A DNA stretch of 64,000 bases. Origin: Actinophytocola xinjiangensis (lineage in GTDB: Bacteria > Actinomycetota > Actinomycetes > Mycobacteriales > Pseudonocardiaceae). Below the pieces are notes generated by a model, which worked only from the letters and a program-made list of their open reading frames with translations, made no database searches and was not told the DNA's origin. The stretch is from assembly GCF_001921215.1 (NCBI RefSeq), contig NZ_MSIF01000002.1, forward strand, positions 248,001 to 312,000, given 5' to 3'. Numbering within the stretch: position 1 is the stretch's first letter; each line of letters begins with the position of its first letter. Shown here in pieces: positions 34,464 through 48,879 of the stretch. The position numbers and the translations under genes are program-made.

Positions 34464-35666
34464 TCAGCCGGCGAGGACTTCGGCGAAGGTGTCGATGCCG
34501 TGGTCGAGGTCGGACCGGGAGATGACCAGGGGTGGGGCGATGCGCAGGGTGGTGTCCTGGGTTTCCTTGCACAGCACGCCCCGGTCCATGAGCTTCTCGC
34601 TGAGGGTGCGGGCGTTGCGGCCGGGGGCGATCTCCACGCCGGCCCACAGGCCCCGGCCTCGGACCTCGGCCACGCCGTGGCCGACGAGGGCGTTGAGGCG
34701 GCGGTGGAGGTGGGCGCCCAGCGTCGTCGACCGCTCCTGGAACTCGCCGGTGGACAGGAGGCGGATGACGGCCCGGCCCACGGCGCAGGCCAGGGGGTTG
34801 CCGCCGAAGGTTGAGCCGTGTTCGCCGGGGCGCAGGACGCCCAGGACGGCTCGGCTGCCGACCACGGCCGACACCGGGAGGATGCCGCCGCCCAGGGCCT
34901 TGCCGAGGGTGTACAGGTCGGCCCGGATGCCGTCGTGGGTGGACGCCAGGAGGGTGCCGGTGCGGGCCAGGCCGGACTGGATCTCGTCGACGATGAGCAG
35001 GGCGTTGTGGGTGTCGCACAGGTGGCGGACCTCGCGGAGGTACCCGGTGGGGGGAACCAGGACGCCGGCCTCACCCTGGACGGGTTCGATCAGGACGGCC
35101 GCGGTGTGCGGGGTGATGGCCGCCTCCAGCGCCTGCGCGTCTCCGTACTTCACCACCTGGAAGCCGGGGGTGAAGGGGCCGAAGTCGTTGCGGGCCACCG
35201 AGTCCGTGGAGAACGAGATGATCGTGGTGGTGCGGCCGTGGAAGTTGGAGCCGGCGACGATGATCTCGGCCCTCCCGTCCGGGACGCCCTTGACCTGGTA
35301 GGCCCACTTGCGGGCCACCTTGATCGCCGACTCGACGGCCTCCGCGCCGGAGTTCATCGGCAGGACCATCTCGGTGCCGGTCAGCTCCGCCAGTTCCTGG
35401 CAGAACAGGCCCAGCTGGTCGTGGTGGAACGCCCGGCTGGTCAGCGTCAGCGTGTTCAGCTGCTCGACGGCCGCCGCGACCAGCGCGGGATGCCGGTGGC
35501 CGAAGTTGAGCGCCGAGTAGCCGGCCAGGAAGTCGAGATAGCGCTTGCCGTCCACGTCGGTCACCCACGCGCCCTCCGCCTCGGCCAGGACGACCGGTAG
35601 CGGATGGTAGTTGTGCGTGCTCCACGTCTCGTCGAGCGCGATCAGGTCCGCAGCGGAAAGCGACAT
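34464..35666 (-). CDS. rocD: Ornithine aminotransferase
   Basis: This 400-residue class III PLP aminotransferase has the PLP lysine K256 in LYTLGKALGGG, the substrate motif STHNYHPLPVVL at the N-terminus, and LPMNSGAEAVE and IVDEIQSGLARTG. These match ornithine-oxo-acid transaminases, which convert ornithine to glutamate semialdehyde. It lies downstream of the pyrimidine-type cluster on the same strand but 141 bp away, so it probably has its own promoter. Use of another omega-amino acid such as beta-alanine cannot be excluded. Confidence 0.9.
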   Translation of the reverse strand: MSLSAADLIALDETWSTHNYHPLPVVLAEAEGAWVTDVDGKRYLDFLAGYSALNFGHRHPALVAAAVEQLNTLTLTSRAFHHDQLGLFCQELAELTGTEMVLPMNSGAEAVESAIKVARKWAYQVKGVPDGRAEIIVAGSNFHGRTTTIISFSTDSVARNDFGPFTPGFQVVKYGDAQALEAAITPHTAAVLIEPVQGEAGVLVPPTGYLREVRHLCDTHNALLIVDEIQSGLARTGTLLASTHDGIRADLYTLGKALGGGILPVSAVVGSRAVLGVLRPGEHGSTFGGNPLACAVGRAVIRLLSTGEFQERSTTLGAHLHRRLNALVGHGVAEVRGRGLWAGVEIAPGRNARTLSEKLMDRGVLCKETQDTTLRIAPPLVISRSDLDHGIDTFAEVLAG

Positions 35667-35807: not shown

Positions 35808-36800
35808 TCAGAGCGCGGGGATGATCTCCTGCCCGTACGCGCGCAGCGTGTCCTCCTTCGCGTCGTGCATCAGGTAGATCGAGAACTGGTCGACGCCCAA
35901 CTCGGCCAGCTCGGTGAGCCGCTTGACGTGCGCCTGCGCCGGTCCGACCAGGCAGAACCGGTCGACGATCTCGTCAGGCACGAAGTCGGTCGACGGGTTG
36001 CCGGCCTTGCCGTGGTGGGCGTAGTCGTAGCCCTCGCGCCCCCGGATGTAGTCGGTCAGCTCGTGGGGGACCGGCCCGGACTCGCCGTAGCGGGCCACCA
36101 GGTCCGCCACATGGTTGCCGACCATGCCGCCGAACCACCGCAGCTGGTCACGCTGATGGGGGATGTTCTCACCCACATAGGCGGGGGCGGCGACACACAT
36201 GGTGATCCCGCCGGGATCGCGGCCGGCGTCCCGCGCCGCCGCCCGCACCGACTCGATCGTCCAGCGGGCGATCGCCGGGTCCGCTGTCTGCAGGATGAAC
36301 CCGTCCGCCTGCTCGCCGACCAGCCGCAGCGCCTTGGGCCCGTAGGCCGCCATCCAGACCTCCAGCCGCCCGTCGCGCACCCACGGGATCCGCACCGGCG
36401 CGTCGTGGTGGACGACCTCCCGACCCTCGGCCAGCTCGCGGATCACGTGCATCGACTCGCGCAGCACCGCCAGCGACGCCGGCCGCTGACCGATCACCCG
36501 CCTGGCCGAGTCGCCCCGCCCGATCCCGCACACCGTCCGGTTGCCGTACATGTCGTTGAGCGTGGCGAACAGCGACGCGATGACCGACCAGTCCCGCGTG
36601 GACGGGTTGGTCACCATCGGCCCGACGACCATCTCCCGTGTGGCCGCCAGGATCTGCGAGTAGATGACGAACGGCTCCTGCCACAGCACGTGCGAGTCGA
36701 ACGTCCAGCCGTACCGGAAGCCGAGGTTCTCGGCCTCGGTCATCAGCCGGACCACCTCGCTGGCCGGCGGGTCGGTCTGCAGTACCACCCCGAAGTCCAT
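35808..36800 (-). CDS. Luciferase-like (F420/FMN) oxidoreductase of the pyrimidine-type cluster
   Basis: This 330-residue TIM-barrel LLM protein begins MDFGVVLQTDPP and has FDSHVLWQEP, VGPMVTNPSTRDW, TVCGIGRGDSAR and VWMAAYGPKALRLVGE. These fit the CPS_4043-type subfamily (TIGR03842), known to me as a frequent neighbour of hydantoinase genes. ATG 36800 is preceded by a G-rich site. It is the last gene of a tightly spaced operon (14 bp after the dihydropyrimidinase). The cofactor, F420 or FMN, cannot be read from the sequence. Context makes it the candidate for the missing redox step on the pyrimidine or hydantoin ring. Confidence 0.88.
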   Translation of the reverse strand: MDFGVVLQTDPPASEVVRLMTEAENLGFRYGWTFDSHVLWQEPFVIYSQILAATREMVVGPMVTNPSTRDWSVIASLFATLNDMYGNRTVCGIGRGDSARRVIGQRPASLAVLRESMHVIRELAEGREVVHHDAPVRIPWVRDGRLEVWMAAYGPKALRLVGEQADGFILQTADPAIARWTIESVRAAARDAGRDPGGITMCVAAPAYVGENIPHQRDQLRWFGGMVGNHVADLVARYGESGPVPHELTDYIRGREGYDYAHHGKAGNPSTDFVPDEIVDRFCLVGPAQAHVKRLTELAELGVDQFSIYLMHDAKEDTLRAYGQEIIPAL

Positions 36801-36813
36801 CCTGGGCACCCCC

Positions 36814-38199
36814 TCAGACGAGATACTGCGACAGGTCCCTGGCCAGGAACTTCCCGTGGCCGGCCTTGCCGTGGAACTGGCCGTCGGCGATGACCACCGA
36901 CCCCCGCGACAGCACCGTCGACACCCCACCGGTGATCGACAGGCCCTCGTAGGCCGAGTAGTCGACGTTCATGTGATGCGTGTCGGCCGACAGGGTCTGG
37001 CGCAGCGCCGGGTCGTAGACCACCACGTCCGCGTCGGCGCCCGGCGCGATCACACCCTTGCGCCCGTAGAGGCCGAACATCCGCGCCGGGGTCGCCGACG
37101 CCACCTCCACCCAGCGGGCCAGGGTCAGCTCACCGGCGACCACGCCCTGGTGCAGCAGGTCCATCCGGTGCTCCACCCCCGGCATGCCGTTGGGGATCTT
37201 GGAGAAGTCGCCCCGCCCCAGCTGCTTCTGGTCCTTGAAACAGAACGGGCAGTGGTCGGTGGACACCACCGACAGGTCGTTGGTGCGCAGCCCGCGCCAC
37301 AGGTCGGCCTGGTGGTCCTTGGTGCGCAGCGGCGGCGACGCGACGTACTTGGCGCCCTCGAAGTCCGGTTTGGCCAGGTCCTCGATGGACAGGTACAGGT
37401 ACTGCGGGCAGGTCTCGGCGAACACGTTCTGCCCGGTGTCCCTGGCCTGCGCGACGGCCTCCAGGGCCTGGCGGGCCGACAGGTGCACGATGTAGAGCGG
37501 CGCGCCGGTGACCTTCGCCAGCTGGATGGCCCGCGAGGTCGCCTCGCCCTCCAGCTCCGGCGGGCGGGTGAGGCCGTGCTCGACCGGGTCGGTGCGCCCG
37601 GAGGCGATCGCCTGGGCCACCAGCTCGTCGATGGCGATGCCGTTCTCCGCGTGCATCATGATCATCGAGCCGGTCTCGGTGGCCTTGTTCATCGCGCGCA
37701 GGATCTCGCCGTCGGTGGCGTAGAAGACGCCGGGGTAGGCCATGAACATCTTGAAGCTGTTCACCCCGGCCGCGATGCAGGACTCCATCTCCTTGAGCGA
37801 CTGGTCGTTCACGTCGGAGACGATCATGTGGAAGCCGTAGTCGACGGCGCAGTTGCCGTCGGCCTTCTCGTGCCACTTGTCCAGTGTGGACAGCAACGAG
37901 GTGCCCTTGGCCTGCACGGCGAAGTCGATGATCGTCGTCGTGCCGCCCCACGCGGCGGCGGTCGTGCCGGTCTCGAAGGTGTCCGCCGAGAACGTGCCGC
38001 CGAAGGGCATCTCCATGTGCGTGTGCGCGTCGATGCCGCCGGGCAGCACGTACTTCCCGTCGGCCTCGATGATCCGGTCGGCCTCGGTGAACACCCCCGG
38101 CGCGGTCACCGCGGCGATCGTCTCGCCGTCCACCAGCACGTCGGCGGCCAGCGCGCCACCGGCGTTGACCACCGTCCCGTTGCGGATCAGGGTGCGCAT
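36814..38199 (-). CDS. hydA: Dihydropyrimidinase/hydantoinase
   Basis: This 461-residue amidohydrolase opens 5,6-dihydropyrimidine rings to N-carbamoyl-beta-amino acids. The binuclear metal site is complete: H59 and H61 (DAHTHMEMP), K150 (NSFKMFMAYPG, the carbamylated lysine, at the same number as in bacterial hydantoinases), then MMHAENG, YIVHLS and VSTDHCPF. ATG 38199 follows GAGG. The gene lies 5 bp after the amidohydrolase for the next step and 14 bp before the LLM gene. Confidence 0.95.
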   Translation of the reverse strand: MRTLIRNGTVVNAGGALAADVLVDGETIAAVTAPGVFTEADRIIEADGKYVLPGGIDAHTHMEMPFGGTFSADTFETGTTAAAWGGTTTIIDFAVQAKGTSLLSTLDKWHEKADGNCAVDYGFHMIVSDVNDQSLKEMESCIAAGVNSFKMFMAYPGVFYATDGEILRAMNKATETGSMIMMHAENGIAIDELVAQAIASGRTDPVEHGLTRPPELEGEATSRAIQLAKVTGAPLYIVHLSARQALEAVAQARDTGQNVFAETCPQYLYLSIEDLAKPDFEGAKYVASPPLRTKDHQADLWRGLRTNDLSVVSTDHCPFCFKDQKQLGRGDFSKIPNGMPGVEHRMDLLHQGVVAGELTLARWVEVASATPARMFGLYGRKGVIAPGADADVVVYDPALRQTLSADTHHMNVDYSAYEGLSITGGVSTVLSRGSVVIADGQFHGKAGHGKFLARDLSQYLV

Positions 38200-38204
38200 C
38201 GGCC

Positions 38205-39047
38205 TCACGCCCCGGTCAGCGAGTCGTAGGTGTCGGGGCGGCGGTCGCGGTAGAACTGCCACAGGTCGCGGACCTCGGTCAGCACGCCCATGTCCAGGTC
38301 GCGCACGACGACCTCGTCCTCGCCGTCGGAGGCCGCCTCCCCGACCAACTGCCCGCGCGGGTCGGCGAAATAGGACTGGCCGTAGAAGTCGTTCTCGCCC
38401 AACGGTTCCACGCCGACCCGGTTGATCGCGCCGACGAAGTACTCGTTGGCCACGGCCGCCGCCGGCTGCTCAAGGCGCCACAGGTACTGGGACAGGCCCC
38501 GGCTGGTGGCCGACGGGTTGAACACGATCCGCGCGCCGCCAAGGCCCAGTGCGCGCCAGCCCTCCGGGAAGTGCCGCTCGTAGCAGATGTAGACGCCGAT
38601 CTTGCCCACGGCCGTGTCGAACACCGGGTAGCCCAGGTTGCCCGGCCGGAAGTAGAACTTCTCCCAGAAGCCCTTGACCTGCGGGATGTGGTTCTTGCGG
38701 TGCTTGCCCAGGTAGGTGCCGTCGGCGTCGATGACCGCCGCGGTGTTGTAGTAGACGCCCGGCTGCTCCTGCTCGTACATCGGCACGACCAGCACCATGT
38801 TGTGCTGGTCGGCCAGCTCGCACATCAGCTGGGTGGTCGGCCCGTCGGGGATCTGCTCGGTGTAGGAGTAGTAGTCGGCGTCCTGCACCTGACAGAAGTA
38901 CGGGCCGTAGAACAGTTCCTGCAGGCACAGGACCTGGGCGCCCTGCGACGCGGCGGTGGCGATGTGGGCCACGGCGGCCTCGATCATCGAGTCCTTGTCC
39001 CCCGTCCAGCGCTGCTGGACCAGAGCGGCCCGAACGATCTCGGACAT
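38205..39047 (-). CDS. Beta-ureidopropionase/N-carbamoyl amide hydrolase (nitrilase family)
   Basis: This 280-residue nitrilase-superfamily amidase has the triad E44 (LQELFYGPYF), K118 (KHRKNHIP) and C155 (YICYERHFPE). It should release ammonia and CO2 from N-carbamoyl-beta-alanine, giving beta-alanine, the step after dihydropyrimidinase. Its ATG overlaps the transporter stop (TGATG at 39047), so the two are translationally coupled. Confidence 0.95.
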   Translation of the reverse strand: MSEIVRAALVQQRWTGDKDSMIEAAVAHIATAASQGAQVLCLQELFYGPYFCQVQDADYYSYTEQIPDGPTTQLMCELADQHNMVLVVPMYEQEQPGVYYNTAAVIDADGTYLGKHRKNHIPQVKGFWEKFYFRPGNLGYPVFDTAVGKIGVYICYERHFPEGWRALGLGGARIVFNPSATSRGLSQYLWRLEQPAAAVANEYFVGAINRVGVEPLGENDFYGQSYFADPRGQLVGEAASDGEDEVVVRDLDMGVLTEVRDLWQFYRDRRPDTYDSLTGA

Positions 39048-40624
39048 CAGCGTTCTCCTTCCGTTCGCTGCCCGGCGGCAGCCTCGTCGCGCCGGCCTGC
39101 GGTCAGCACCAGGTACACGAGGAATGCTGCCACGAAACCGACCAGCCAGCTGTAGTCGTACAGGTCCTTGAGGAACGGGATCAGGCCGTCCACCGGGAAC
39201 GGTCCGGACTTGACTCCCTGGTCGTCGACGGTGGAGTAGGCGCCGCCGACGGCCAGCAGCGCGCCGACGACCGCGGCCACCAGCGCCGCCCAGTTCCATC
39301 CGCCGCGGTACCAGTACCGCCCCCGTTCGGCGTACAGGTCGGCCAGGTCCAGGTGGGTGCGGGCGCGCACCCAGTAGCCGGCGGCCAGCACCCCGGCGAT
39401 CGGCGCGAGCAGCCCGCCGTAGGTGTTGAGCCAGGCGAAGATGTAGATGTCGGGGTCCTCGTAGAGCTTCCACGGCAGGATGACGACCCCGATGATCCCG
39501 GTGATCAGCCCGCCGACCCGGAAGCTGATCCGCTTCGGGAAGGCGTTGGAGAAGTCGTAGGACGGGCTGACGACGTTGGCCGCGATGTTGGTCGACACCG
39601 TCGCCAGGATGACCACCAGCAGGCCGACGAACACCGCCAGCCCGCTGTCGAACCGGTTGATCAGGTTCACCGGGTCGAACAGCGAGTTCAGGTTGTCGCC
39701 GAGCTCGTCGCCGTAGACCTCGACGGCGCTGGACGTGATGATGATCGACAGCAGCGCGATGAACGCCATGCTGGTCGGCAGCCCGAGGATCTGGCCGATG
39801 GTCTGCTTGCGCTGGCTGGCGGAGAAGCGGGAGAAGTCGGGGATGTTGAGCGAGAGCGTCGCCCAGAACGCGATCATCCCCATCAGTGAGGGCGCGAACA
39901 CCTTCCAGAAATCAGCGCCCCAGCCCAGTCGGGACTCCTGGGAGAAGATCGAGCCGATGCCGCCGGCCTCGCCGACGATCCACACGGCCACCGCGATCAG
40001 GCTCAGCGCCAGGATCGGCGCCGCCCAGTTCTCCAGCCACCGGACCGCGTTCATACCGCGCCAGATGAACACCATCTGGCCGAACCAGAACAACGCGAAG
40101 CACAGCCACAGCGTCCACGGCTTGCCGGCCAGCGACGCGGCCTCGGTCCAGCCGTCGCCGGTCATCCTGCCGATGATCGAGTACATCGCCGAGCCGCCGA
40201 TCCAGGTCTGCACGCCGAACCAGCCGCAGGCGACCAGGGCGCGCAGCAGGGCGGCCAGGTTGGCGCCGTGCATGCCGAAGAAGGCGCGGGCGTAGACCGG
40301 GAACGGGATGCCGTACTTGGTGCCGGCGTGGCTGTTGAGCAGCATCGGGACCAGGACGATCAGGTTGGCCAGGGTGATCGTCAGGAACGCCTGGAGCCAG
40401 TTCATCCCGAACAGGATCAGCCCGGCGGCCAGCGAGTAGCTGGGCACGCAGAACGCCATGGCCATCCACAGCGCCGTGTAGTTGTAGGTGTTCCAGGTGC
40501 GTTTCTCGATCGGCACGGGGGCCAGCTCGGAGTTGTAGAACCGGCTGTCGCTGATGCCCGAGTGGTCGGCGAGGTCGACCCGGCCGTCGGGATGGGTGGT
40601 GGCGGTGCTGCTAACCGGTGCCAT
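39047..40624 (-). CDS. NCS1-family nucleobase/hydantoin permease
   Basis: This 525-residue membrane protein has about 12 helices and the NCS1 N-terminal motif ELAPVPIEKRTWNTYNYTALWMAM. The inner helices contain NSHAGTKYGIPFPVYARAFFG and ACGWFGVQTWIGG, as in Mhp1, PucI and cytosine permeases. It is the first gene of the operon, and its neighbours point to uracil, thymine, dihydropyrimidine or hydantoin as the cargo. The upstream region carries a 9-bp word shared with the pucR promoter region. Confidence 0.94.
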   Translation of the reverse strand: MAPVSSTATTHPDGRVDLADHSGISDSRFYNSELAPVPIEKRTWNTYNYTALWMAMAFCVPSYSLAAGLILFGMNWLQAFLTITLANLIVLVPMLLNSHAGTKYGIPFPVYARAFFGMHGANLAALLRALVACGWFGVQTWIGGSAMYSIIGRMTGDGWTEAASLAGKPWTLWLCFALFWFGQMVFIWRGMNAVRWLENWAAPILALSLIAVAVWIVGEAGGIGSIFSQESRLGWGADFWKVFAPSLMGMIAFWATLSLNIPDFSRFSASQRKQTIGQILGLPTSMAFIALLSIIITSSAVEVYGDELGDNLNSLFDPVNLINRFDSGLAVFVGLLVVILATVSTNIAANVVSPSYDFSNAFPKRISFRVGGLITGIIGVVILPWKLYEDPDIYIFAWLNTYGGLLAPIAGVLAAGYWVRARTHLDLADLYAERGRYWYRGGWNWAALVAAVVGALLAVGGAYSTVDDQGVKSGPFPVDGLIPFLKDLYDYSWLVGFVAAFLVYLVLTAGRRDEAAAGQRTEGER

Positions 40625-40771
40625 CGCTACTCCGCAGGTGTCTGGGCCGATGGTGCGACAACGGGCATCGTTGAGTGTCCGGCTCGGACCAGGGGAGTGT
40701 CAGAGTGTCGGCCGTTGGCGGGTTCTGTTGACAGTCTGCCTCTTGACGATCTGTCCTGTGTAGACAGCGAA
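40625..40771 (-). promoter_or_regulatory. Operon promoter region with dyads and a GACAGTCTG word
   Basis: This 147-bp region precedes the permease start. It holds a dyad CTGTC-N7-GACAG (40751-40767), CTGT-TG-ACAG (40725-40734), and GACAGTCTG (40730-40738). The last also occurs, inverted, between pucR and the aminotransferase gene (43245-43253). These are candidate PucR sites. Confidence 0.4.
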
Positions 40772-41611
40772 TCAGAGCTGGTGCAGCAGCCAGCGGGGCC
40801 CGGTCACCTCGGCGCCGGCGGCCCGACAGCGGGCCTTGAGCTCCCGGTCGGCGGTCACCACCAGACACAGCGCGCCCGGGTCCTCGGCCAGGATCCCGCG
40901 GACCGAGGCGACGATCTGGTCGTCGCCGTCCCCGGCCGCCGACACCACGTCGACCGACGTCCCACCAGCGCCGATTCCACGCGCCTTACCCTCCACGACC
41001 AGCACCTTCTCCGGGAACGCCCGGTCGAACGGGCCCATCCCGGTGACCCCGCCGACGGCCGCCACCTCGTCCCGCAGCCGCGCCGCCGCGCCCGCCCGGT
41101 CCCGCCACCAGCCGTCGGCCCGCGACCCCATCACGTTCGCCACGTCCACCACCAGCACCGGCCGGCGCAGACACGGCCGCAGCCGGGGCCAGGCGTCGGC
41201 GAACGGCCCGAACAGGTCCTGGTCGGCCACCTCGTCCACCGGGACCCAGGCCGCGCCGGCCGACTCCCACGACGCCGGCCCGACCTCCGCCCGCCCGGCC
41301 ACCGTGCCGATCACCGTGTCGTAGGCCCAGCCGCCGTGGTCCTCGTGCATCACCGCCCGCACGGTCACCGTCGAGACCTCCAATGTGGACTCCTCGGAGG
41401 TCTCCCGCAGCGCCGCCTGGACCGGGGTCTCGTCGCTGTCGCGGGCCCCGCCGAACACCCCCCAGGTGTCGCCGCCGATCGTCAGCTTCGCCCGGTGCTG
41501 GAGCAGCACGAACCCGTCGTGGTGAACCAGCAGCCCGGCCGCGCCGAAACGCCCCCAGTGGGTGTGCCCCTGTCCACACTCGACGAGGCCGTCACCGTCC
41601 CGCCTGGTCAT
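40772..41611 (-). CDS. Nudix hydrolase fused to NYN/PIN-like domain
   Basis: This 279-residue two-domain protein has a complete Nudix box in residues 1-150 (GGARDSDETPVQAALRETSEE). Residues 150-279 resemble a NYN/PIN nuclease fold with conserved acids in LVVDVANVMG, AAGDGDDQIV and LVVTADRELKA. Linking nucleotide-diphosphate cleavage to a probable RNase-type domain suggests a role in RNA or nucleotide turnover. The ATG at 41611 overlaps the pucR stop (ATGA), so it is made together with PucR. Confidence 0.85.
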   Translation of the reverse strand: MTRRDGDGLVECGQGHTHWGRFGAAGLLVHHDGFVLLQHRAKLTIGGDTWGVFGGARDSDETPVQAALRETSEESTLEVSTVTVRAVMHEDHGGWAYDTVIGTVAGRAEVGPASWESAGAAWVPVDEVADQDLFGPFADAWPRLRPCLRRPVLVVDVANVMGSRADGWWRDRAGAAARLRDEVAAVGGVTGMGPFDRAFPEKVLVVEGKARGIGAGGTSVDVVSAAGDGDDQIVASVRGILAEDPGALCLVVTADRELKARCRAAGAEVTGPRWLLHQL

Positions 41612-43215
41612 GGCGCTCCGCTCTCGTGCACAAGCAGTGCCACGTGCAGCGACAGCACCGACTCCGGGTCGTCCAGGGACACGCCGAGCACCTGCTCGAC
41701 CCGCGCCAGCTGCTGGTAGTAGGCCGTGCGGGACATGTGCGCGGCCGACGCCGCCGCCGACTTGTTGCCGCCGTGCTCACAGAAGTGTCGCAGGGCCGCC
41801 AGCAGCCTGCTCGCGTGCGCGGCGTCCCTGGCCAGCAGCGGCCCTAGCTCCCGCGCGGCGAACGCGCTCACCCGGTCGTCGTCGGCCAGCAGGTGCAGCA
41901 GCCCACGCAGCCGCACGTCGTCGAGCCGGTGGTAGGGCCGCTCGGCGGCCGACCGCAGCGCCGCCTTCGCCACGTGCGCCGCCTCGACCAGGCTGCGCCG
42001 CGCGTCGGTCACCGACTCGACGGTCGTGCCCACCGCCACCACCACCGGCGGCACCGAACTGGCCGTCTGGTGGATCTCCCTGGCCAGCCGGCAGACCACC
42101 GACGACTCGTCGGCCTGCGGGGTCAGCGACAGCAGCGCCCGCACCGAGATGTCGTCAACCACCCCGACCAGCGCCGCCACCCTGGCCCGGCGGGCGGCCA
42201 GCGCCGTCGCTTCCGCCAGGTCACGCAGCACCTCCTGGGTGGCCATCGCCGGCGACGCGGCCACCGTGCTCGGCCGCACCGACACGCCGATCAGCCGCCG
42301 CCGCAGCAGCGGCACGCCCAGCGCCCCGGCCCGCGCGTTCAGGTCGGCCGGGGTGGTCGGCGAGGACAGCAGCTCGGTGAGCAGCGTGCGGTGCGCGTGG
42401 CGCTCCAGGCTCTCCCGGTCGCGGGCCACCAGCCGGTGCACGGCCAGCGCCGAGGCCGCCCGCTCGGCGATCACCACCACCCGGTGCGGCGGCTCGGACG
42501 GGCACACCAGCACCAGCCGGCCCCAGTCGTTGCCGCGCGCGCCGACCACCGTGACCAGCCAGCCGGCGTCGGGGTCGTAGCTGGTGCGGGTCGTCGGGGT
42601 GACCGTGCGGGACCGCCCCGCCCAGTCGGCGACCAGCTCGCCGGGGTCGGCGCCGGCCGCGTCGTAGGCCAGCACGTCGTGGCCCAGGGTCTCCAGCACC
42701 ACCGGCAGCCCGCACGAGCGGGCCACCTCGCGCAGCACCTCCGGCGGCTCGGCGCCGGCCACCGTCAGCGCGGTGAACGTCTCGTGCACCCGTTCGGCCG
42801 CCCGCAGCTCGGCGACCTGGGCGTCCACGATCAGCCCGATGACCGCCTCGGTGACCGCCACGAACCGGGTCTCGCGCGAGAGCGTCACCAACGGCAGCTC
42901 GTGCCGGTCGGCGGCGGCGACCAGCGCCGGCGGCAGCTCGCGGCTCCAGTGCCGGATCAGCTCGACGACCACCCCGACCACACCCGCCTCGGCCAGCTCG
43001 TCGACGTAGCGGGTCAGCTCGTCCGGGTCGTCGGACAGTGCGATGCCGGTGGTCAGCACCAGCTCGCCGCCGCGCAGCAACCCGGCGATGTCGGCGACCT
43101 CGGCGATGTGCACCCAGCGGACCCGCCGCTCCAGCCCGTCGGCGCCGGCGACCACGGTCGCCAAGCCCTGCCGGATCACCGGCAGCGCGAGCACGTCGGC
43201 CATGGTCGGGTACAT
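41608..43215 (-). CDS. pucR: PucR-family transcriptional regulator
   Basis: This regulator of about 535 residues has an N-terminal PucR domain (TMADVLALPVIRQGLATVVAGADGLERRVRWVHIAEV, LVLTTGIAL), a central GGDEF-like region, and a C-terminal helix-turn-helix (HGGNKSAAASAAHMSRTAYYQQLARVEQVLG). PucR proteins sense purine or pyrimidine breakdown intermediates. It lies between two halves of the catabolic cluster and is divergent from the aminotransferase gene. ATG 43215 is preferred; GTG 43224 and ATG 43203 are possible. No ribosome site is seen. Confidence 0.92.
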   Translation of the reverse strand: MYPTMADVLALPVIRQGLATVVAGADGLERRVRWVHIAEVADIAGLLRGGELVLTTGIALSDDPDELTRYVDELAEAGVVGVVVELIRHWSRELPPALVAAADRHELPLVTLSRETRFVAVTEAVIGLIVDAQVAELRAAERVHETFTALTVAGAEPPEVLREVARSCGLPVVLETLGHDVLAYDAAGADPGELVADWAGRSRTVTPTTRTSYDPDAGWLVTVVGARGNDWGRLVLVCPSEPPHRVVVIAERAASALAVHRLVARDRESLERHAHRTLLTELLSSPTTPADLNARAGALGVPLLRRRLIGVSVRPSTVAASPAMATQEVLRDLAEATALAARRARVAALVGVVDDISVRALLSLTPQADESSVVCRLAREIHQTASSVPPVVVAVGTTVESVTDARRSLVEAAHVAKAALRSAAERPYHRLDDVRLRGLLHLLADDDRVSAFAARELGPLLARDAAHASRLLAALRHFCEHGGNKSAAASAAHMSRTAYYQQLARVEQVLGVSLDDPESVLSLHVALLVHESGAP

Positions 43216-43244
43216 GTTGTGCACACTCTACGGGCGTGCGGATA

Positions 43245-43253
43245 CAGACTGTC
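43245..43253 (-). promoter_or_regulatory. GACAGTCTG word in the pucR/aminotransferase region
   Basis: The 9-mer GACAGTCTG (minus strand) lies between the divergent starts at 43215 and 43292. The same word is in the permease promoter region at 40730-40738. It is a candidate site for PucR; with two occurrences the support is modest. Confidence 0.35.
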
Positions 43254-43291
43254 CATGGCGCGCCAACGATCGCGCCGCCACACTCGGGACC

Positions 43292-44590
43292 ATGGCCGAA
43301 CCGCGTCTGATCGACCGCCACCGAGCCGTCATGCCCGACTGGCTCGCCCTCTACTACGACGACCCGCTGGAGATCGTGCACGGTCACGGGCGCCGGGTCA
43401 CCGATGCGACCGGCAAGTCCTACCTGGACTTCTTCGCCGGCATCCTGACCAACGCCATCGGCTACGACGTCGCCGAGGTCAGCGACGCCGTGCGCAAACA
43501 GCTGGACTCGGGGATCCTGCACACCTCCACGCTGTACCTGATCCGCAGCCAGGTGGAACTCGCCGAGCAGATCGCGCGCCTGTCCGGCATCCCGGACGCG
43601 AAGGTGTTCTTCACCAACTCCGGCACCGAGGCCAACGAGACCGCGCTGATGCTGGCCACCCAGTACCGGCGCAGCAACCAGGTCCTGGCCCTGCGCAACT
43701 CCTACCACGGGCGGGCGTTCGCCACCGTCGGCGTCACCGGCATCCGAGGCTGGTCGGCCTCGGCCCTGTCGCCGGTCAAGGTGTCCTACGTGCACGGTGG
43801 CTACCGCTACCGGGGGCCGTTCGCCGGCTACTCCGACGCCGACTACGTCAAGGCGTGCACCGACGACCTGCGTGACGTGCTGCTCACCGGCACCTCCGGC
43901 GACGTCGCCTGCATGATCGTCGAGCCGATCCAGGGCGTCGGCGGGTTCACCTCCCCGCCCGACGGGCTGTTCGGCGCCTTCCACGAAGTCCTTGCCGAGC
44001 AAGGGATCCTGTTCGTCTCCGACGAGGTGCAGACCGGCTGGGGCCGCACCGGCGACACGTTCTGGGGCATCGAGGCGCACGGCGTCACCCCGGACATGAT
44101 GACCTTCGCCAAGGGCCTGGCCAACGGCCTGGCGATCGGCGGCGTCGTCGCCCGCGGCTCGATCATGGACACCATCGCGTCCAACTCGATCTCCACCTTC
44201 GGCGGCAACCCGGTGTCCACCGCGGGCGCCCGCGCCGCCCTGGACTACCTGCTCGACCACGACCTCCAGGCCAACGCGGCGAGGCTGGGCGCGCGGCTGC
44301 TGGCCGGGCTGCGCGCCGTCGCGCAACGGCACCCGGTGGTCGGCGACGTGCGCGGCAAGGGCCTGATGGTCGGCATCGAACTGGTCGAACCCGGCGGCAC
44401 CACACCCGCGCCGGCCGCGGCGGTCACCGTGCTGGAGGAATGCCGGCGGCTGGGCCTGCTGGTCGGCAAGGGCGGCCTGCACAACAACGTCATCCGGCTC
44501 GCCCCGCCGATGACCCTGACCGCCGAGGAACTCGACGAGGCGCTGGGCATCCTGGGCGAAGCCGTCGCGGCGGCGGACGGAGGTCGGTGA
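43292..44590 (+). CDS. Class III aminotransferase, probable beta-alanine transaminase
   Basis: This 432-residue PLP enzyme has the PLP lysine K274 (MTFAKGLANG). VFFTNSGTEANE and FVSDEVQTGWGRTG match the alanine-glyoxylate aminotransferase 2/beta-alanine group. It is followed without a gap (TGATG) by a malonate-semialdehyde dehydrogenase, so its product is most likely malonate semialdehyde, or methylmalonate semialdehyde from beta-aminoisobutyrate. ATG 43292 has GGGA upstream. Confidence 0.9.
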   Translation: MAEPRLIDRHRAVMPDWLALYYDDPLEIVHGHGRRVTDATGKSYLDFFAGILTNAIGYDVAEVSDAVRKQLDSGILHTSTLYLIRSQVELAEQIARLSGIPDAKVFFTNSGTEANETALMLATQYRRSNQVLALRNSYHGRAFATVGVTGIRGWSASALSPVKVSYVHGGYRYRGPFAGYSDADYVKACTDDLRDVLLTGTSGDVACMIVEPIQGVGGFTSPPDGLFGAFHEVLAEQGILFVSDEVQTGWGRTGDTFWGIEAHGVTPDMMTFAKGLANGLAIGGVVARGSIMDTIASNSISTFGGNPVSTAGARAALDYLLDHDLQANAARLGARLLAGLRAVAQRHPVVGDVRGKGLMVGIELVEPGGTTPAPAAAVTVLEECRRLGLLVGKGGLHNNVIRLAPPMTLTAEELDEALGILGEAVAAADGGR

Positions 44591-46083
44591 TGGGCCGGAT
44601 CAGCCACTGGATCGACGGCAAGCCCTGGGACGGCGTGCCGGCCCGGCACGGCGAGGTGTACGACCCGGCCACCGGCGAGGTCACCGGCCAGGTCGACTTC
44701 GCCGGCCCGACCGAGGTGGACCTGGCGGTCGACTCGGCCGCGCGGGCCTTCCCCGGCTGGCGCGACACCTCACTCGCCGCCAGGTCCCGCGTCCTGTTCG
44801 CGTTCCGTGAACTGCTCAACACCCACCGCGACGAGCTGGCGGCGATCGTCACCGCCGAACACGGCAAGGTGCTCGACGACGCGGCCGGCGAGGTCGGCCG
44901 GGCGCTGGAGAACGCCGAGTTCGCCTGCGGCATCCCGGCGCTGCTCAAGGGCGGTTTCTCGGAGAACGCCTCCACCAGGGTCGACGTGTACTCGCTGCGT
45001 CAGCCGCTGGGGGTCGTCGGCGTGATCTCGCCGTTCAACTTCCCGGCGATGGTGCCGCTGTGGTTCGTGCCGATCGCCATCGCCTGCGGGAACACGGTGG
45101 TGCTCAAGCCGTCGGAGAAGGACCCGTCGGCGTCGAACTTCGTCGCCGAGCTGTGGGCGCGGGCCGGGCTGCCCGACGGCGTGCTGAACGTGCTGCACGG
45201 CGACAAGGTGGCCGTCGACGGGCTGCTGACCCACCCGACCGTGCGCGGCATCTCCTTCGTCGGGTCGACGCCGGTCGCGCGGTACGTGTACGAGACCGCC
45301 ACCAGCCACGGCAAACGCGTCCAGGCCCTCGGCGGGGCCAAGAACCACATGGTCGTGCTGCCCGACGCCGACCTCGACCTGGCCGCCGACGCGGCCGTCT
45401 CGGCCGGTTTCGGCTCGGCCGGCGAGCGGTGCATGGCCGTGTCGGTGGTCGTGGCCGTCGACCCGGTCGGCGACGAGCTGGTCGAGAAGGTGCGGGCCAG
45501 GATCGCCGACCTGCACGTCGGCGACGGCCGCCGGCCAGGCTGCCAGATGGGTCCGCTGGTCACCGGCGCGCACCGGGACAAGGTGGCGTCCTATGTGGAG
45601 ACGGGGGTCGCCGAGGGCGCGTCGCTGGTCGTCGACGGTCGAGGCCACCCGATCGACGGCGAACCCGGCGGCTTCTGGCTCGGCCCGACCCTGTTCGACC
45701 ACGTCAAACCCGAGATGACGGTGTACACCGACGAGATCTTCGGCCCCGTGCTGTCGGTGGTACGCGCCTCCAGCTACGCGGCGGCCGTCGACCTGGTCAA
45801 CGCCAACCCGTACGGCAACGGCACCGCGATCTTCACCAACGACGGCGGTGCCGCGCGACGGTTCCAGAACGAGATCGAGGTCGGGATGGTCGGCGTGAAC
45901 GTGCCGATCCCGGTGCCGGTCGCCTACTACTCCTTCGGCGGGTGGAAGGCGTCGCTGTTCGGTGACAGCCACGCCTACGGCCCCGATGGCCTGCACTTCT
46001 ACACCAGGACGAAGGTGGTGACCAGCCGCTGGCTCGACCCGTCGCACGGCGGCGTCAACCTCGGTTTCCCCCGCAACGACTGA
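44590..46083 (+). CDS. mmsA: CoA-acylating (methyl)malonate-semialdehyde dehydrogenase
   Basis: This 497-residue aldehyde dehydrogenase of the MMSDH group has catalytic C281 in GSAGERCMAVS, the cofactor region ISPFNFPAMVPLWFVPIAIACGNT, and the C-terminal YSFGGWKASLFGD. It oxidises malonate semialdehyde to acetyl-CoA, or methylmalonate semialdehyde to propionyl-CoA, with CoA, NAD and CO2 release. It shares its start with the stop of the aminotransferase and closes the proposed pathway from uracil or thymine to central metabolism. Confidence 0.95.
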   Translation: MGRISHWIDGKPWDGVPARHGEVYDPATGEVTGQVDFAGPTEVDLAVDSAARAFPGWRDTSLAARSRVLFAFRELLNTHRDELAAIVTAEHGKVLDDAAGEVGRALENAEFACGIPALLKGGFSENASTRVDVYSLRQPLGVVGVISPFNFPAMVPLWFVPIAIACGNTVVLKPSEKDPSASNFVAELWARAGLPDGVLNVLHGDKVAVDGLLTHPTVRGISFVGSTPVARYVYETATSHGKRVQALGGAKNHMVVLPDADLDLAADAAVSAGFGSAGERCMAVSVVVAVDPVGDELVEKVRARIADLHVGDGRRPGCQMGPLVTGAHRDKVASYVETGVAEGASLVVDGRGHPIDGEPGGFWLGPTLFDHVKPEMTVYTDEIFGPVLSVVRASSYAAAVDLVNANPYGNGTAIFTNDGGAARRFQNEIEVGMVGVNVPIPVPVAYYSFGGWKASLFGDSHAYGPDGLHFYTRTKVVTSRWLDPSHGGVNLGFPRND

Positions 46084-46311: not shown

Positions 46312-48879
46312 GTGTTCACATCAGTCGGGGCGGGTTTGACCGGCGCGGAGATCTACCGCACCTTCCACAACGACACCCTGGCCATCGGCGCCGCCGACGC
46401 GTTCGAGGACGCGCGCCAGGCGGTCCGCGAGGTGCCGCCGGTGCCGGGCAGACCCGGACTGTGGGACAACCTGACCTCGGCGGCGGGTGCCACCCGCAGC
46501 CACGAAACCCTCCTCAACCAGATCAACGCGGCGAACGAGTTCAACGTGTCCGTGATGGAGCGTTACGAGGCGGCGTCCCGGCCGGTCGACAGTCCTGGTG
46601 GGACGCCCCCGCCCGCCCCGGCCTGGCCCGACCCGCCGGGGGACGGGGCCGGCGGGTCCGGCGGCGGGCCTTCGGTGGGGTGGCCCGAGGCGCCGGGTGG
46701 TTGGCCGTCCGGTCGGGACCTGTCCGATGTGGCTGGTGGACGAGGTGCGCCGGGTTCGTCCGGTGGCTGGAACGTGCCTGACGCGTCGGGTGGGTCGCCC
46801 AATGGCTGGCCTGAGGCGTCCGGTGGTGGGCAACCGCCTGATTCGCATGGTGGTCGTGGTTCGTCTGGTGGCCGGATCGTGCCTGATGCGTCGGGTGGGG
46901 CGTCCAACGGTTGGCCTGAGGCGTCTGGTGGTGGGCCGTCGTCTGATTCGCACGGTGGTCGTGGTCCGTCCGAGGTCCCTGGCGGTCGGCCTGTGCCGGA
47001 TCCGTCCGGTGGCTTTTCTGAGCAGTCCGGCAGGTGGACCGCGTCCGATCGGCCTGGTGGCGGGAATCTGCCTGGGGCGCCGGGGAATCGGAGCGTTCCT
47101 GAGCCGTCGGGTGGGCGGAACTGGCCGGAGCCGGCCGGTGGTCGGAACGCGACCGAGGTGGCGGGCGGCCGGAACGGTCCGTCCGGTGGCTGGAACGCGC
47201 CTGGTCCGAACGGTCGTGGTGTGCCGCAGGGGAACGGAGTTCCCGGCGGCTGGCCCGACGCCTCGGGAGGCCGGGGCCGGCCGGGGCCGCCTGACGGCAG
47301 GAACGGTCCGACCAGGCCCGACCCGTCCGACGGACGTGGTCTCCCGAATGCGCCGGGCGGTCAGTTCCGGCCCGATTCCCAGAGCGGTCAGGGTTTTCCC
47401 GCGGTGCCGGGCGCGCGGACACTGCCGGAGTCGTCGAACGGCGCGCCGGCTGGCGGGAATCCGCCGGCCCGTCGACAAGCGCCGGGCGGCTTTCCCGAGG
47501 CGCCCGCGCCCGGTCGGGGATTACCTGATTCCCCGGCGGGGCCGAGTGCGCCGGCTGCCCGAGGCAGGCTTGACCGGCCGGGCAACCAGGGCCCGCCCGA
47601 CGGTGCCCGTGCGGTGCCGGGCACCGGCGCCCCGGACCTGGGCGGCAGCCGGCCTCACCCTGATCCGGCGGCCGGCCGAGGCGGGCAGAATCCGCCAGGT
47701 GGCTGGAACTCACCCGCCGGTCCGGATGGCAGCGCCCGGAACCTGCCCGCGATGCCCGACGCGTCCGGCGATCGGAACCGTCCCCCGGACCCGCGCGGCG
47801 GACTGGGCGCGGCCGGTGGCGTGACTGGGCCGGGCCGTGCCCCGGCCGAGGGTGGACCCGGCGGCCTGAGCCGGCCCGAGTGGCCGGACCGGAACTTGCC
47901 CGAGTCGCCTGGTGGGCGTGGTGTGCCGGAGGTGTCTGGTGGCCTGAATCGGCCCGATGCGTCGGGTGGGTGGAACCTGCCGGAGTCCCCAGGTGGGCCG
48001 GATGGCCGTGGCGCGCCGGAATCGCCCGGTGGGCGTGGTGTGCCTGATGCGGCGGGCAGTGGGAACGAGGGGGCGTCGCGGGGTGGGCGGGGTGTGCCTG
48101 AGCCACCTGGTGGGCGGGGTCCGTCCGATGTGGTGGATGGTCGGGGCGTGCCGGGCGTGCCGGGCGTGCCGGGTGGGGCTGGTGGGGTGAATCGGGCCGA
48201 TGGGACGGGTGGTCGGCTGGAAGTGCCTGGTGGGCCTCGTGGTCGGACCTTGCCTGAGCCACCTGGTGGGCGGAACCAGCCTGAGATGCCTGCCCGACAA
48301 GGCATCGGCGGTGTGAATCGGCCGGAGATGGCTTCGGGCGGCGGTGGGCGGAACGTGTCTGGGCCGGGTGGCGGACGGAATCCGGCTGGGCCGCCGCCTG
48401 GGTCGCCGGCTGGGTCGCCGCCTGGGCCGCCGCCTGGGTCGCCGGCTGGGCAGGGTTGGAACCGTGCGGGTGGGCAGCAGCCTCCGTCCATGCCGTTGCC
48501 TGTTCAGGCGGGGCCGGGTGCGTCTCAGTCGGCTTCGTTGGCGCAGTTGGATTTCGGGCCGGGGTCGCCGGCTCCCGTGCCCCCGTCGCCGCCACCGCCA
48601 CCGCCGCCGGTGGTTCGGGCGGTGGCGCCGCCGCCCACGCCGATGGACTTCTCGGGCGGGTTCGGGCCTCAGGGGAGTGGGGGGTTCGGGCCGGGAGGTA
48701 GCAGCAGTTTCGTCGGCGGGTACGGGCCGTTGGAGACGACGCCGGCCGCCGACGCCGCTGACGGCGGGCAACCTCCGCAGCGGGTGGAGCAGGAGCGGCC
48801 CAGTTTCCTGCTCGAACCTGAACATCACGAGACCTTTGGCACCGACGCGGTCACCTCGCCGCCGGTGATCGGTGAGTAG
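46312..48879 (+). CDS. PPE-like protein with long Gly/Pro-rich repeat region
   Basis: This 855-residue protein starts at GTG 46312. Residues 1-90 are helical and end in NQINAANEFNVSVMERYE, resembling the second half of a PPE domain. Residues 95-700 are low complexity, built of short units such as PSGGR, ASGGW and PGGRG at about 8-20 residue steps, and look disordered. Proline tracts (PPGSPAG) and a tail with EPEHHETFGTDAVTSPPVIGE follow. The downstream EspG-like chaperone, which in mycobacteria binds PPE proteins, supports a type VII substrate. The DNA repeats make this stretch prone to length variation. Confidence 0.75.
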   Translation: MFTSVGAGLTGAEIYRTFHNDTLAIGAADAFEDARQAVREVPPVPGRPGLWDNLTSAAGATRSHETLLNQINAANEFNVSVMERYEAASRPVDSPGGTPPPAPAWPDPPGDGAGGSGGGPSVGWPEAPGGWPSGRDLSDVAGGRGAPGSSGGWNVPDASGGSPNGWPEASGGGQPPDSHGGRGSSGGRIVPDASGGASNGWPEASGGGPSSDSHGGRGPSEVPGGRPVPDPSGGFSEQSGRWTASDRPGGGNLPGAPGNRSVPEPSGGRNWPEPAGGRNATEVAGGRNGPSGGWNAPGPNGRGVPQGNGVPGGWPDASGGRGRPGPPDGRNGPTRPDPSDGRGLPNAPGGQFRPDSQSGQGFPAVPGARTLPESSNGAPAGGNPPARRQAPGGFPEAPAPGRGLPDSPAGPSAPAARGRLDRPGNQGPPDGARAVPGTGAPDLGGSRPHPDPAAGRGGQNPPGGWNSPAGPDGSARNLPAMPDASGDRNRPPDPRGGLGAAGGVTGPGRAPAEGGPGGLSRPEWPDRNLPESPGGRGVPEVSGGLNRPDASGGWNLPESPGGPDGRGAPESPGGRGVPDAAGSGNEGASRGGRGVPEPPGGRGPSDVVDGRGVPGVPGVPGGAGGVNRADGTGGRLEVPGGPRGRTLPEPPGGRNQPEMPARQGIGGVNRPEMASGGGGRNVSGPGGGRNPAGPPPGSPAGSPPGPPPGSPAGQGWNRAGGQQPPSMPLPVQAGPGASQSASLAQLDFGPGSPAPVPPSPPPPPPPVVRAVAPPPTPMDFSGGFGPQGSGGFGPGGSSSFVGGYGPLETTPAADAADGGQPPQRVEQERPSFLLEPEHHETFGTDAVTSPPVIGE

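Follow-up and report, generated by a model that had tools for sequence, protein, structure and literature searches.

In the reductive Pyd pathway of pyrimidine breakdown, PreTA/PydA converts uracil to dihydrouracil beside PydB and PydC. Passages of one study describe PydA as combining iron-sulfur clusters with an FMN domain that belongs to the DHO-dehydrogenase family, and as drawing on NAD(P)H or ferredoxin as donor, and place the hydrolysis of the pyrimidine ring by dihydropyrimidinase after its reduction (PMC7332683). RutA, which has a luciferase-like fold, also acts on uracil. Sections of a report on NpsU/SSGG-03002 present this putative F420/FMN oxidoreductase as needed to reduce the uracil C5=C6 bond, as judged by deletion and NMR, and state that SSGG-03002 could not be assayed successfully in vitro; its target is an antibiotic or a precursor of that antibiotic (PMC10714638). 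In Chloroflexota uric-acid clusters, a putative F420-dependent yanthine reductase of the F420/luciferase family is described in parts of another paper as standing where others have YgfK or a PF01180 protein; its substrate is purine-derived and its cluster a different one (PMC12507026). Both are parallels in proposed role to the TIGR03842 protein described below. In the titles and abstract openings of the open-licence PMC literature, we found no report of an F420-dependent dihydropyrimidine dehydrogenase, or of TIGR03842 together with a dihydropyrimidinase. The locus described here has, in the pathway place of PydA and with the same proposed reaction, a 330-aa luciferase-family protein, the LLM oxidoreductase (LLM).

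The window, a stretch of 64,000 nt, comes from the Actinophytocola xinjiangensis genome (99.3% complete, 72 contigs). On its minus strand, LLM (35808..36800) matched TIGR03842 (CPS_4043) over its full length with 590 bits against a cut-off of 295.45, which agrees with the family named in the preliminary description. Its start is a conserved Met at 36800, and the listed ORF reaching to 36929 begins too early. The gene is separated by 13 nt, rather than the 14 bp given earlier, from a dihydropyrimidinase gene of the PydB/HydA type (36814..38199, minus; TIGR02033, 602 bits, cut-off 393), the closest solved chains of which are the D-hydantoinase 1yny and the dihydropyrimidinase 3sfw. On the same strand lies a CN-hydrolase gene (38205..39047; PF00795), a candidate for the beta-ureidopropionase PydC. 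Its closest solved chain was 2vhh (CG3027-PA), followed by the N-carbamoylputrescine amidohydrolase 5h8i and the beta-ureidopropionases 8pt4/6ftq, and its top NCBIfam match, N-carbamoylputrescine amidase, stayed under the cut-off. By homology, dihydropyrimidinase and beta-ureidopropionase genes thus co-occur in the window, as in the Pyd pathway. An NCS1 nucleobase permease (39047..40624, minus; TIGR00800, 385 bits, above cut-off; PF02133) and a PucR-type regulator (41608..43224, minus; PF07905 and PF13556) are also present. Two genes on the plus strand encode a class III aminotransferase (43292..44590; PF00202), probably a beta-alanine/beta-aminoisobutyrate transaminase in the PydD role, and a CoA-acylating (methyl)malonate-semialdehyde dehydrogenase (MMSDH; 44590..46083; TIGR01722, 710 bits). 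All of the genes named in the preliminary description are present.

Two further minus-strand genes were considered. A NUDIX-domain protein (40772..41611; PF00293) is encoded between pucR and the permease, with a 4-nt overlap at the pucR stop; its membership of the system is doubtful, and in some relatives, such as L059, the spacing between the PucR and NCS1 genes is too small for a NUDIX gene. An ornithine aminotransferase downstream of LLM (34464..35666; TIGR01885, above cut-off) probably lies outside the system, since a homologue was present in the flank of just 6 of 80 related loci. A promoter scan found none, and a terminator scan found three, compared with 2.2 in shuffles.

A dihydropyrimidine dehydrogenase of known type, a mark of the Pyd pathway, was not found in the window genome: the best match to the PreA family NF006183 reached 27 bits against a cut-off of 335. 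For PF01180, one match exceeded the cut-off (a 346-aa frame, 263 bits) and another fell below it (22 bits). No match to RutA (TIGR03612, cut-off 498.3 bits) was obtained at E 1e-60 across the genome, LLM included. The host is predicted to make F420, as both cofH (529 bits) and cofD (399 bits) scored above cut-off; for npdG, no match did so (best 79 bits versus 149.8), which weighs against the F420 reading below.

LLM itself scored 589.6 bits in the genome-wide TIGR03842 search, and PF00296 was its sole Pfam match at E 0.001. Lacking PF01180 and the iron-sulfur domains of PreA/PydA, it is not a member of that family and resembles it at most in function. In profile comparison with solved chains, the top ten were all F420 enzymes by molecule name, with the F420-dependent methylenetetrahydromethanopterin reductase Mer nearest. 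The same enzyme was nearest when the LLM model was compared with solved structures, where the top 15 rows by Z were F420-type enzymes. Both lines of comparison suggest that the closest relatives of LLM are F420 enzymes and not FMN monooxygenases. LLM is nevertheless distinct from Mer: identity is 22–28%, the scores fall far below the Mer equivalog cut-offs (104 versus 348.7 bits for TIGR03555, 119 versus 276 for NF002619), and the NHVxD and YDYxxH motifs, kept in 15 TIGR03842 members, are missing from the two Mer chains compared.

We consider it very probable, judging from gene content, linkage, the failure to find PreA or RutA, the F420 genes, the Leisingera plasmid swap described below and the Mer-like fold, that the cluster encodes a complete reductive pyrimidine-degradation pathway with LLM carrying out step one using F420H2. 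The NCS1 permease would bring in uracil or thymine, and LLM would reduce their C5=C6 bond by hydride transfer from F420H2, yielding dihydrouracil or dihydrothymine. The ring would then be opened by dihydropyrimidinase, the CN-hydrolase would free NH3 and CO2, the aminotransferase would produce malonate or methylmalonate semialdehyde, and MMSDH would convert these to acetyl- or propionyl-CoA. A cellular F420 reductase would regenerate F420H2; in the Leisingera version, this would be npdG. LLM would thus be isofunctional with, but unrelated to, dihydropyrimidine dehydrogenase and would need no iron-sulfur clusters. The substrate, the cofactor used in catalysis and the direction of the reaction are what we infer for LLM within this scheme.

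Across the phylum, TIGR03842 was carried by 62 of 296 sampled genomes, and the named loci with the family include Streptomyces. PreA was detected in none of the 62 carriers and in none of the 48 genomes behind named loci, a set that may overlap the carriers. Exclusion between PreA and LLM within the phylum is weak evidence by itself, because PreA is so rare there (2/296). A supposed PreA beside LLM in the Rubrobacter locus L110 was withdrawn, as the query turned out to be the neighbouring M20 ORF. Among the 80 related loci, a class III aminotransferase homologue was present in the fetched flank of 46 and an MMSDH homologue in that of 24, and LLM stood alone at only one (L127); given these linkage counts, the cluster association is not due to chance. 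TIGR02033 was present without TIGR03842 in 28 genomes, of which we viewed 21, namely G196 (locus L154) and 20 others; in 3 of these 20 (G290, G202 and G266) a CN-hydrolase match lay near the dihydropyrimidinase. In G155 a contig end cuts the locus behind an aminotransferase, and in G032 and G083 the sole LLM match within 10 kb was a distant one (26% and 33%). The dihydropyrimidinases of G119 and G264 group in the clade of LLM-linked ones although LLM was not found in these genomes, which speaks against the pathway reading; neither has a CN-hydrolase match nearby.

Further evidence came from Leisingera plasmids, on which hydA has no adjoining PreTA; instead, it is adjoined by a cof operon that ends in LLM and includes an NADPH:F420 reductase (npdG). 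LLM thus sits in the place where other clusters carry PreA, next to a RutR-like regulator. This swap covers 10 plasmids from two species, which may represent a single event, and the search for PreA there covered the plasmids. In Paracoccus, too, the LLM operon contains cof genes and an F420 reductase; however, no hydA is annotated within 12 kb, which counts against the pathway reading. Together, the absence of PreA from the window genome, the carriers and the named-locus genomes and the Leisingera swap support the reading, already put forward in the preliminary description, of LLM as a putative stand-in for dihydropyrimidine dehydrogenase.

A different substrate is the alternative that fares best, although we regard it as improbable: LLM could be an F420-dependent reductase in this type of pathway that acts on another cyclic ureide or substituted pyrimidine, such as hydantoins, modified pyrimidines or rings derived from purines. 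Dihydropyrimidinases also accept hydantoins, as the D-hydantoinase match recalls, and the Chloroflexota yanthine reductase proposal concerns a different protein of the F420/luciferase family. Moreover, another contig of the window genome encodes a further TIGR03842 protein, next to an M20 hydrolase of an allantoate-amidohydrolase subfamily and without a dihydropyrimidinase. However, MMSDH and the aminotransferase suit beta-alanine or beta-aminoisobutyrate, and the RutR-like regulator and PreA position of the Leisingera LLM argue for pyrimidines. Hydantoin oxidation, raised in the preliminary description, is disfavoured in particular, as the three plasmid hydA loci that lack both PreA and LLM resemble hydantoin clusters.

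The preliminary description had left the donor as F420H2 or FMNH2. Reduction of uracil by LLM with FMNH2 or a flavin reductase is very unlikely in our view, so that only the F420H2 part of that suggestion is retained for uracil/thymine reduction. The LLM fold does bind FMN too, and cofH was unmatched at E 1e-50 in 9 of the 62 carriers. This does not imply that F420 genes are absent, since 7 of the 9 have cofD; the other two, G115 and G224 (220 and 370 contigs), showed neither marker. In both Leisingera and Paracoccus, LLM lies in one operon with cof genes and an F420 reductase, which also speaks against FMNH2. F420 enzymes likewise outranked FMN enzymes by profile and, save for one low row in which the F420 oxidoreductase 9g64 was placed under RutA by Z, by fold. 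F420 genes are also frequent in non-carriers (134/234), which tempers the case for F420. An npdG match above cut-off was found in 13 of 28 carriers tested and in 0 of 12 non-carriers, which says little because the latter were chosen among genomes without a cofH match. Proximity of cofD to the cluster in two genomes (G206 and G237) was not counted as linkage, given the unrelated intervening genes in G237.

LLM and RutA share the luciferase-like fold, and a RutR-like regulator adjoins the Leisingera LLM. That LLM is a RutA-like monooxygenase opening the ring oxidatively is hardly credible, because RutA was absent from the solved chains matched by profile at E 0.01 and above cut-off in 0 of the 62 carriers, and oxidative opening would bypass the post-reduction step (PMC7332683) of the adjoining dihydropyrimidinase. 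Equally slim is the chance that LLM serves another step or an accessory role, with an unrecognised enzyme elsewhere reducing uracil: LLM went undetected in G266 (390 contigs, 91% complete), a genome with close homologues of PydB and PydC, and L127 is a lone LLM, but the cluster holds candidates for every step except the reductase, and the LLM operon replaces PreTA in Leisingera.

We think it likely that TIGR03842 represents a new, iron-sulfur-free and F420H2-driven class of dihydropyrimidine dehydrogenase found in about one-fifth of the genomes sampled from this phylum, and that the F420 operon of Leisingera, and perhaps of Paracoccus, is kept mainly or only for this enzyme. If true, a family still listed as a hypothetical equivalog in NCBIfam would gain a substrate and a reaction, and the first step of reductive pyrimidine breakdown would be filled in genomes without detected PreA. 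F420H2 would join NAD(P)H and ferredoxin as known donors, and F420 would have a concrete physiological role in some alphaproteobacteria.

All the genes attributed to the cluster in the preliminary description were placed: NCS1 permease, dihydropyrimidinase, CN-hydrolase, aminotransferase, MMSDH, luciferase-like oxidoreductase (LLM) and PucR, with four families above curated cut-offs. The minus strand carries the permease (39047-40624; TIGR00800, 385 bits), the CN-hydrolase (38205-39047; nearest solved chain 2vhh), the dihydropyrimidinase (36814-38199; TIGR02033, 602 bits) and the LLM (35808-36800; TIGR03842, 590 bits). The permease stop and the CN-hydrolase start share 1 nt, and gaps of 5 nt (CN-hydrolase/dihydropyrimidinase) and 13 nt (dihydropyrimidinase/LLM) make this stretch operon-like; the adjacency of the last two genes thus stood, with the earlier figure of 14 bp corrected to 13 nt. 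Divergent from pucR (41608-43224, minus strand), the class III aminotransferase (43292-44590) and MMSDH (44590-46083; TIGR01722, 710 bits) overlap by 1 nt on the plus strand. Among solved chains, the CN-hydrolase matched 2vhh (CG3027-PA), a Drosophila beta-alanine synthase, first, then N-carbamoylputrescine amidohydrolase, with beta-ureidopropionase 8pt4/6ftq close; its best NCBIfam match, N-carbamoylputrescine amidase, was under cut-off. The window LLM shares 88% identity with its Actinophytocola algeriensis counterpart. The last 4 nt of pucR, at its stop, also belong to a NUDIX-domain ORF (40772-41611, minus strand), and in some relatives the spacing is too tight for an ORF at that place. 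A long, repetitive, glycine- and proline-rich ORF of 855 aa (46312-48879, plus strand) had no match in Pfam (E 0.001) or NCBIfam (E 1e-10).

The reported absence of a PreA-type first enzyme held genome-wide: across the window genome (9.5 Mb, 72 contigs, 99.3% complete), nothing exceeded the cut-off of the PreA family NF006183, RutA had no match at E 1e-60, and PF01180 returned one protein above cut-off, in a 346-aa frame. We sampled 296 genomes evenly across the phylum (≥90% completeness requested), 62 of which carried TIGR03842 at E 1e-80. None of these carriers had RutA above its cut-off of 498 bits, the match in one of them (G206) reaching 247 bits. PreA was found at E 1e-80 in only two sampled genomes, both non-carriers, one of which (G196) shows the canonical order PreA-M20 hydrolase-dihydropyrimidinase.

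Across the sampled phylum, the LLM is linked to dihydropyrimidinase. TIGR02033 (E 1e-117) was detected in 89 of the 296 genomes, 61 of them with TIGR03842 and 28 among the 234 without it (Fisher p 4e-40, relatedness uncorrected). The two genes lay within 10 kb in 49 of the 62 carriers, these 49 spanning 14 families judged by family codes, and on the same strand with <300 nt between them in 22. Scanning named genomes yielded at least 595 relatives; in the best 80, a set biased toward the window's kin, the flanks held a dihydropyrimidinase at 76 loci (directly upstream, within 400 nt, at 65), CN-hydrolase at 72 (an M20 hydrolase instead at one), aminotransferase at 46, NCS1 at 45, PucR at 27, MMSDH at 24 and PreA at none. 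Nor was PreA found at E 1e-60 in 48 whole genomes drawn from this set. Three of the four loci lacking dihydropyrimidinase have the LLM close to a contig end or on a 3.2-3.5 kb contig; the fourth (L127) is a lone LLM copy.

The window genome holds a second TIGR03842 protein on contig C8 (L011:4906-8778), 65% identical to the first. No dihydropyrimidinase lies at its locus, where an M20 hydrolase assigned to an allantoate-amidohydrolase subfamily is its neighbour and a PucR gene is encoded on the opposite strand. It groups in the LLM tree with a clade where 9 of 10 other genomes have the LLM within 10 kb of dihydropyrimidinase, and it may use the dihydropyrimidinase of contig C12 or have another substrate.

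Some dihydropyrimidinase loci have no close LLM. At L182:7017-9327, a CN-hydrolase and a dihydropyrimidinase near the window type occur in a genome where no TIGR03842 was found, reflecting either an assembly gap or a different first enzyme. Two other genomes without TIGR03842 have a distant LLM match within 10 kb of dihydropyrimidinase (33% at L173:9108-12241; 26% at L169:9046-19511). One cluster in a same-order genome (L164:6572-15652), with several gene names assigned by eye, combines an NMT1-type ABC transporter, CN-hydrolase, SsnA-like amidohydrolase, dihydropyrimidinase, GntR and M20 hydrolase; neither LLM nor PreA was matched nearby, and it is probably another ureide pathway.

Twelve plasmid records carried the LLM at E 1e-60 (10 from two Leisingera species, one Streptomyces, one Paracoccus). 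In the two of ten Leisingera clusters viewed, L. caerulea (L058) and L. aquaemixtae (L184), one arm encodes NCS1, hydA, a Zn-dependent hydrolase, an aminotransferase and NAD(P) transhydrogenase, and the back-to-back arm reads cofG-cofH-cofD-cofC-cofE-npdG-LLM, then a TetR regulator. The L058 regulator matches RutR, a uracil sensor, at 194 bits, under the equivalog cut-off of 368, and RutR is also its nearest solved chain. The Qingshengfaniella locus L160 instead has PreA, preceded by an NAD(P)-dependent oxidoreductase that is PreT by position, with a RutR-like regulator, Zn hydrolase and hydA; identities to Leisingera are 74% for hydA, 74% for the hydrolase and 47% for the regulator. In a 25-sequence tree, Leisingera hydA groups with PreA-linked and hydantoin-type alphaproteobacterial hydA (support 100/100), separate from hydA of LLM clusters in the window's phylum. 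Among 50 hydA records, all from plasmids, PreA was within 13 kb in 37, counting PreA among the matches listed (60 of 62 records); on the same count none had both PreA and LLM and three had neither. The LLM was present in 10, all Leisingera (nine within 20 kb, the tenth spanning the circular origin). All three loci with neither were viewed: PreA and LLM are not among the annotated genes of these stretches, and an N-carbamoyl-D-amino-acid hydrolase adjoins hydA, as in hydantoin use. On a Paracoccus alcaliphilus plasmid (L057:6587-13002), a further F420 operon in an alphaproteobacterium, the LLM terminates a cof-npdG operon; an ABC transporter is next, and the annotation shows no hydA over 12 kb.

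Because the cof-npdG-LLM operon combines F420 synthesis and NADPH-driven F420 reduction with only one F420-type oxidoreductase, the arrangement argues for cofactor and reductive direction jointly. Of the two donors suggested initially, F420H2 or FMNH2, F420H2 is favoured as the predicted one. Related chemistry appears in excerpts of published work: an F420 luciferase-family reductase was proposed for yanthine in Chloroflexota (PMC12507026), and uracil-ring reduction in mureidomycins requires, by genetics, a putative F420/FMN oxidoreductase (PMC10714638). PMC7332683 describes PydA forms that use NAD(P)H and forms that use ferredoxin, and F420 was not found in its excerpts on PydA; excerpts of PMC8097209 and PMC9045290 mention F420 and dihydropyrimidine dehydrogenase unconnected. 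Mycobacterium smegmatis has the reductive route with a gene set only partly identified, according to part of PMC4617892; we do not claim this case as solved, since TIGR03842 (E 1e-80) occurred in none of the 12 same-order genomes sampled.

The finding is real. Linkage, PreA absence and the Leisingera swap bear out the main idea of the preliminary description, and the LLM is well supported as a predicted stand-in for dihydropyrimidine dehydrogenase. The window cluster is a new form of a known pathway, most likely with a non-homologous first enzyme.
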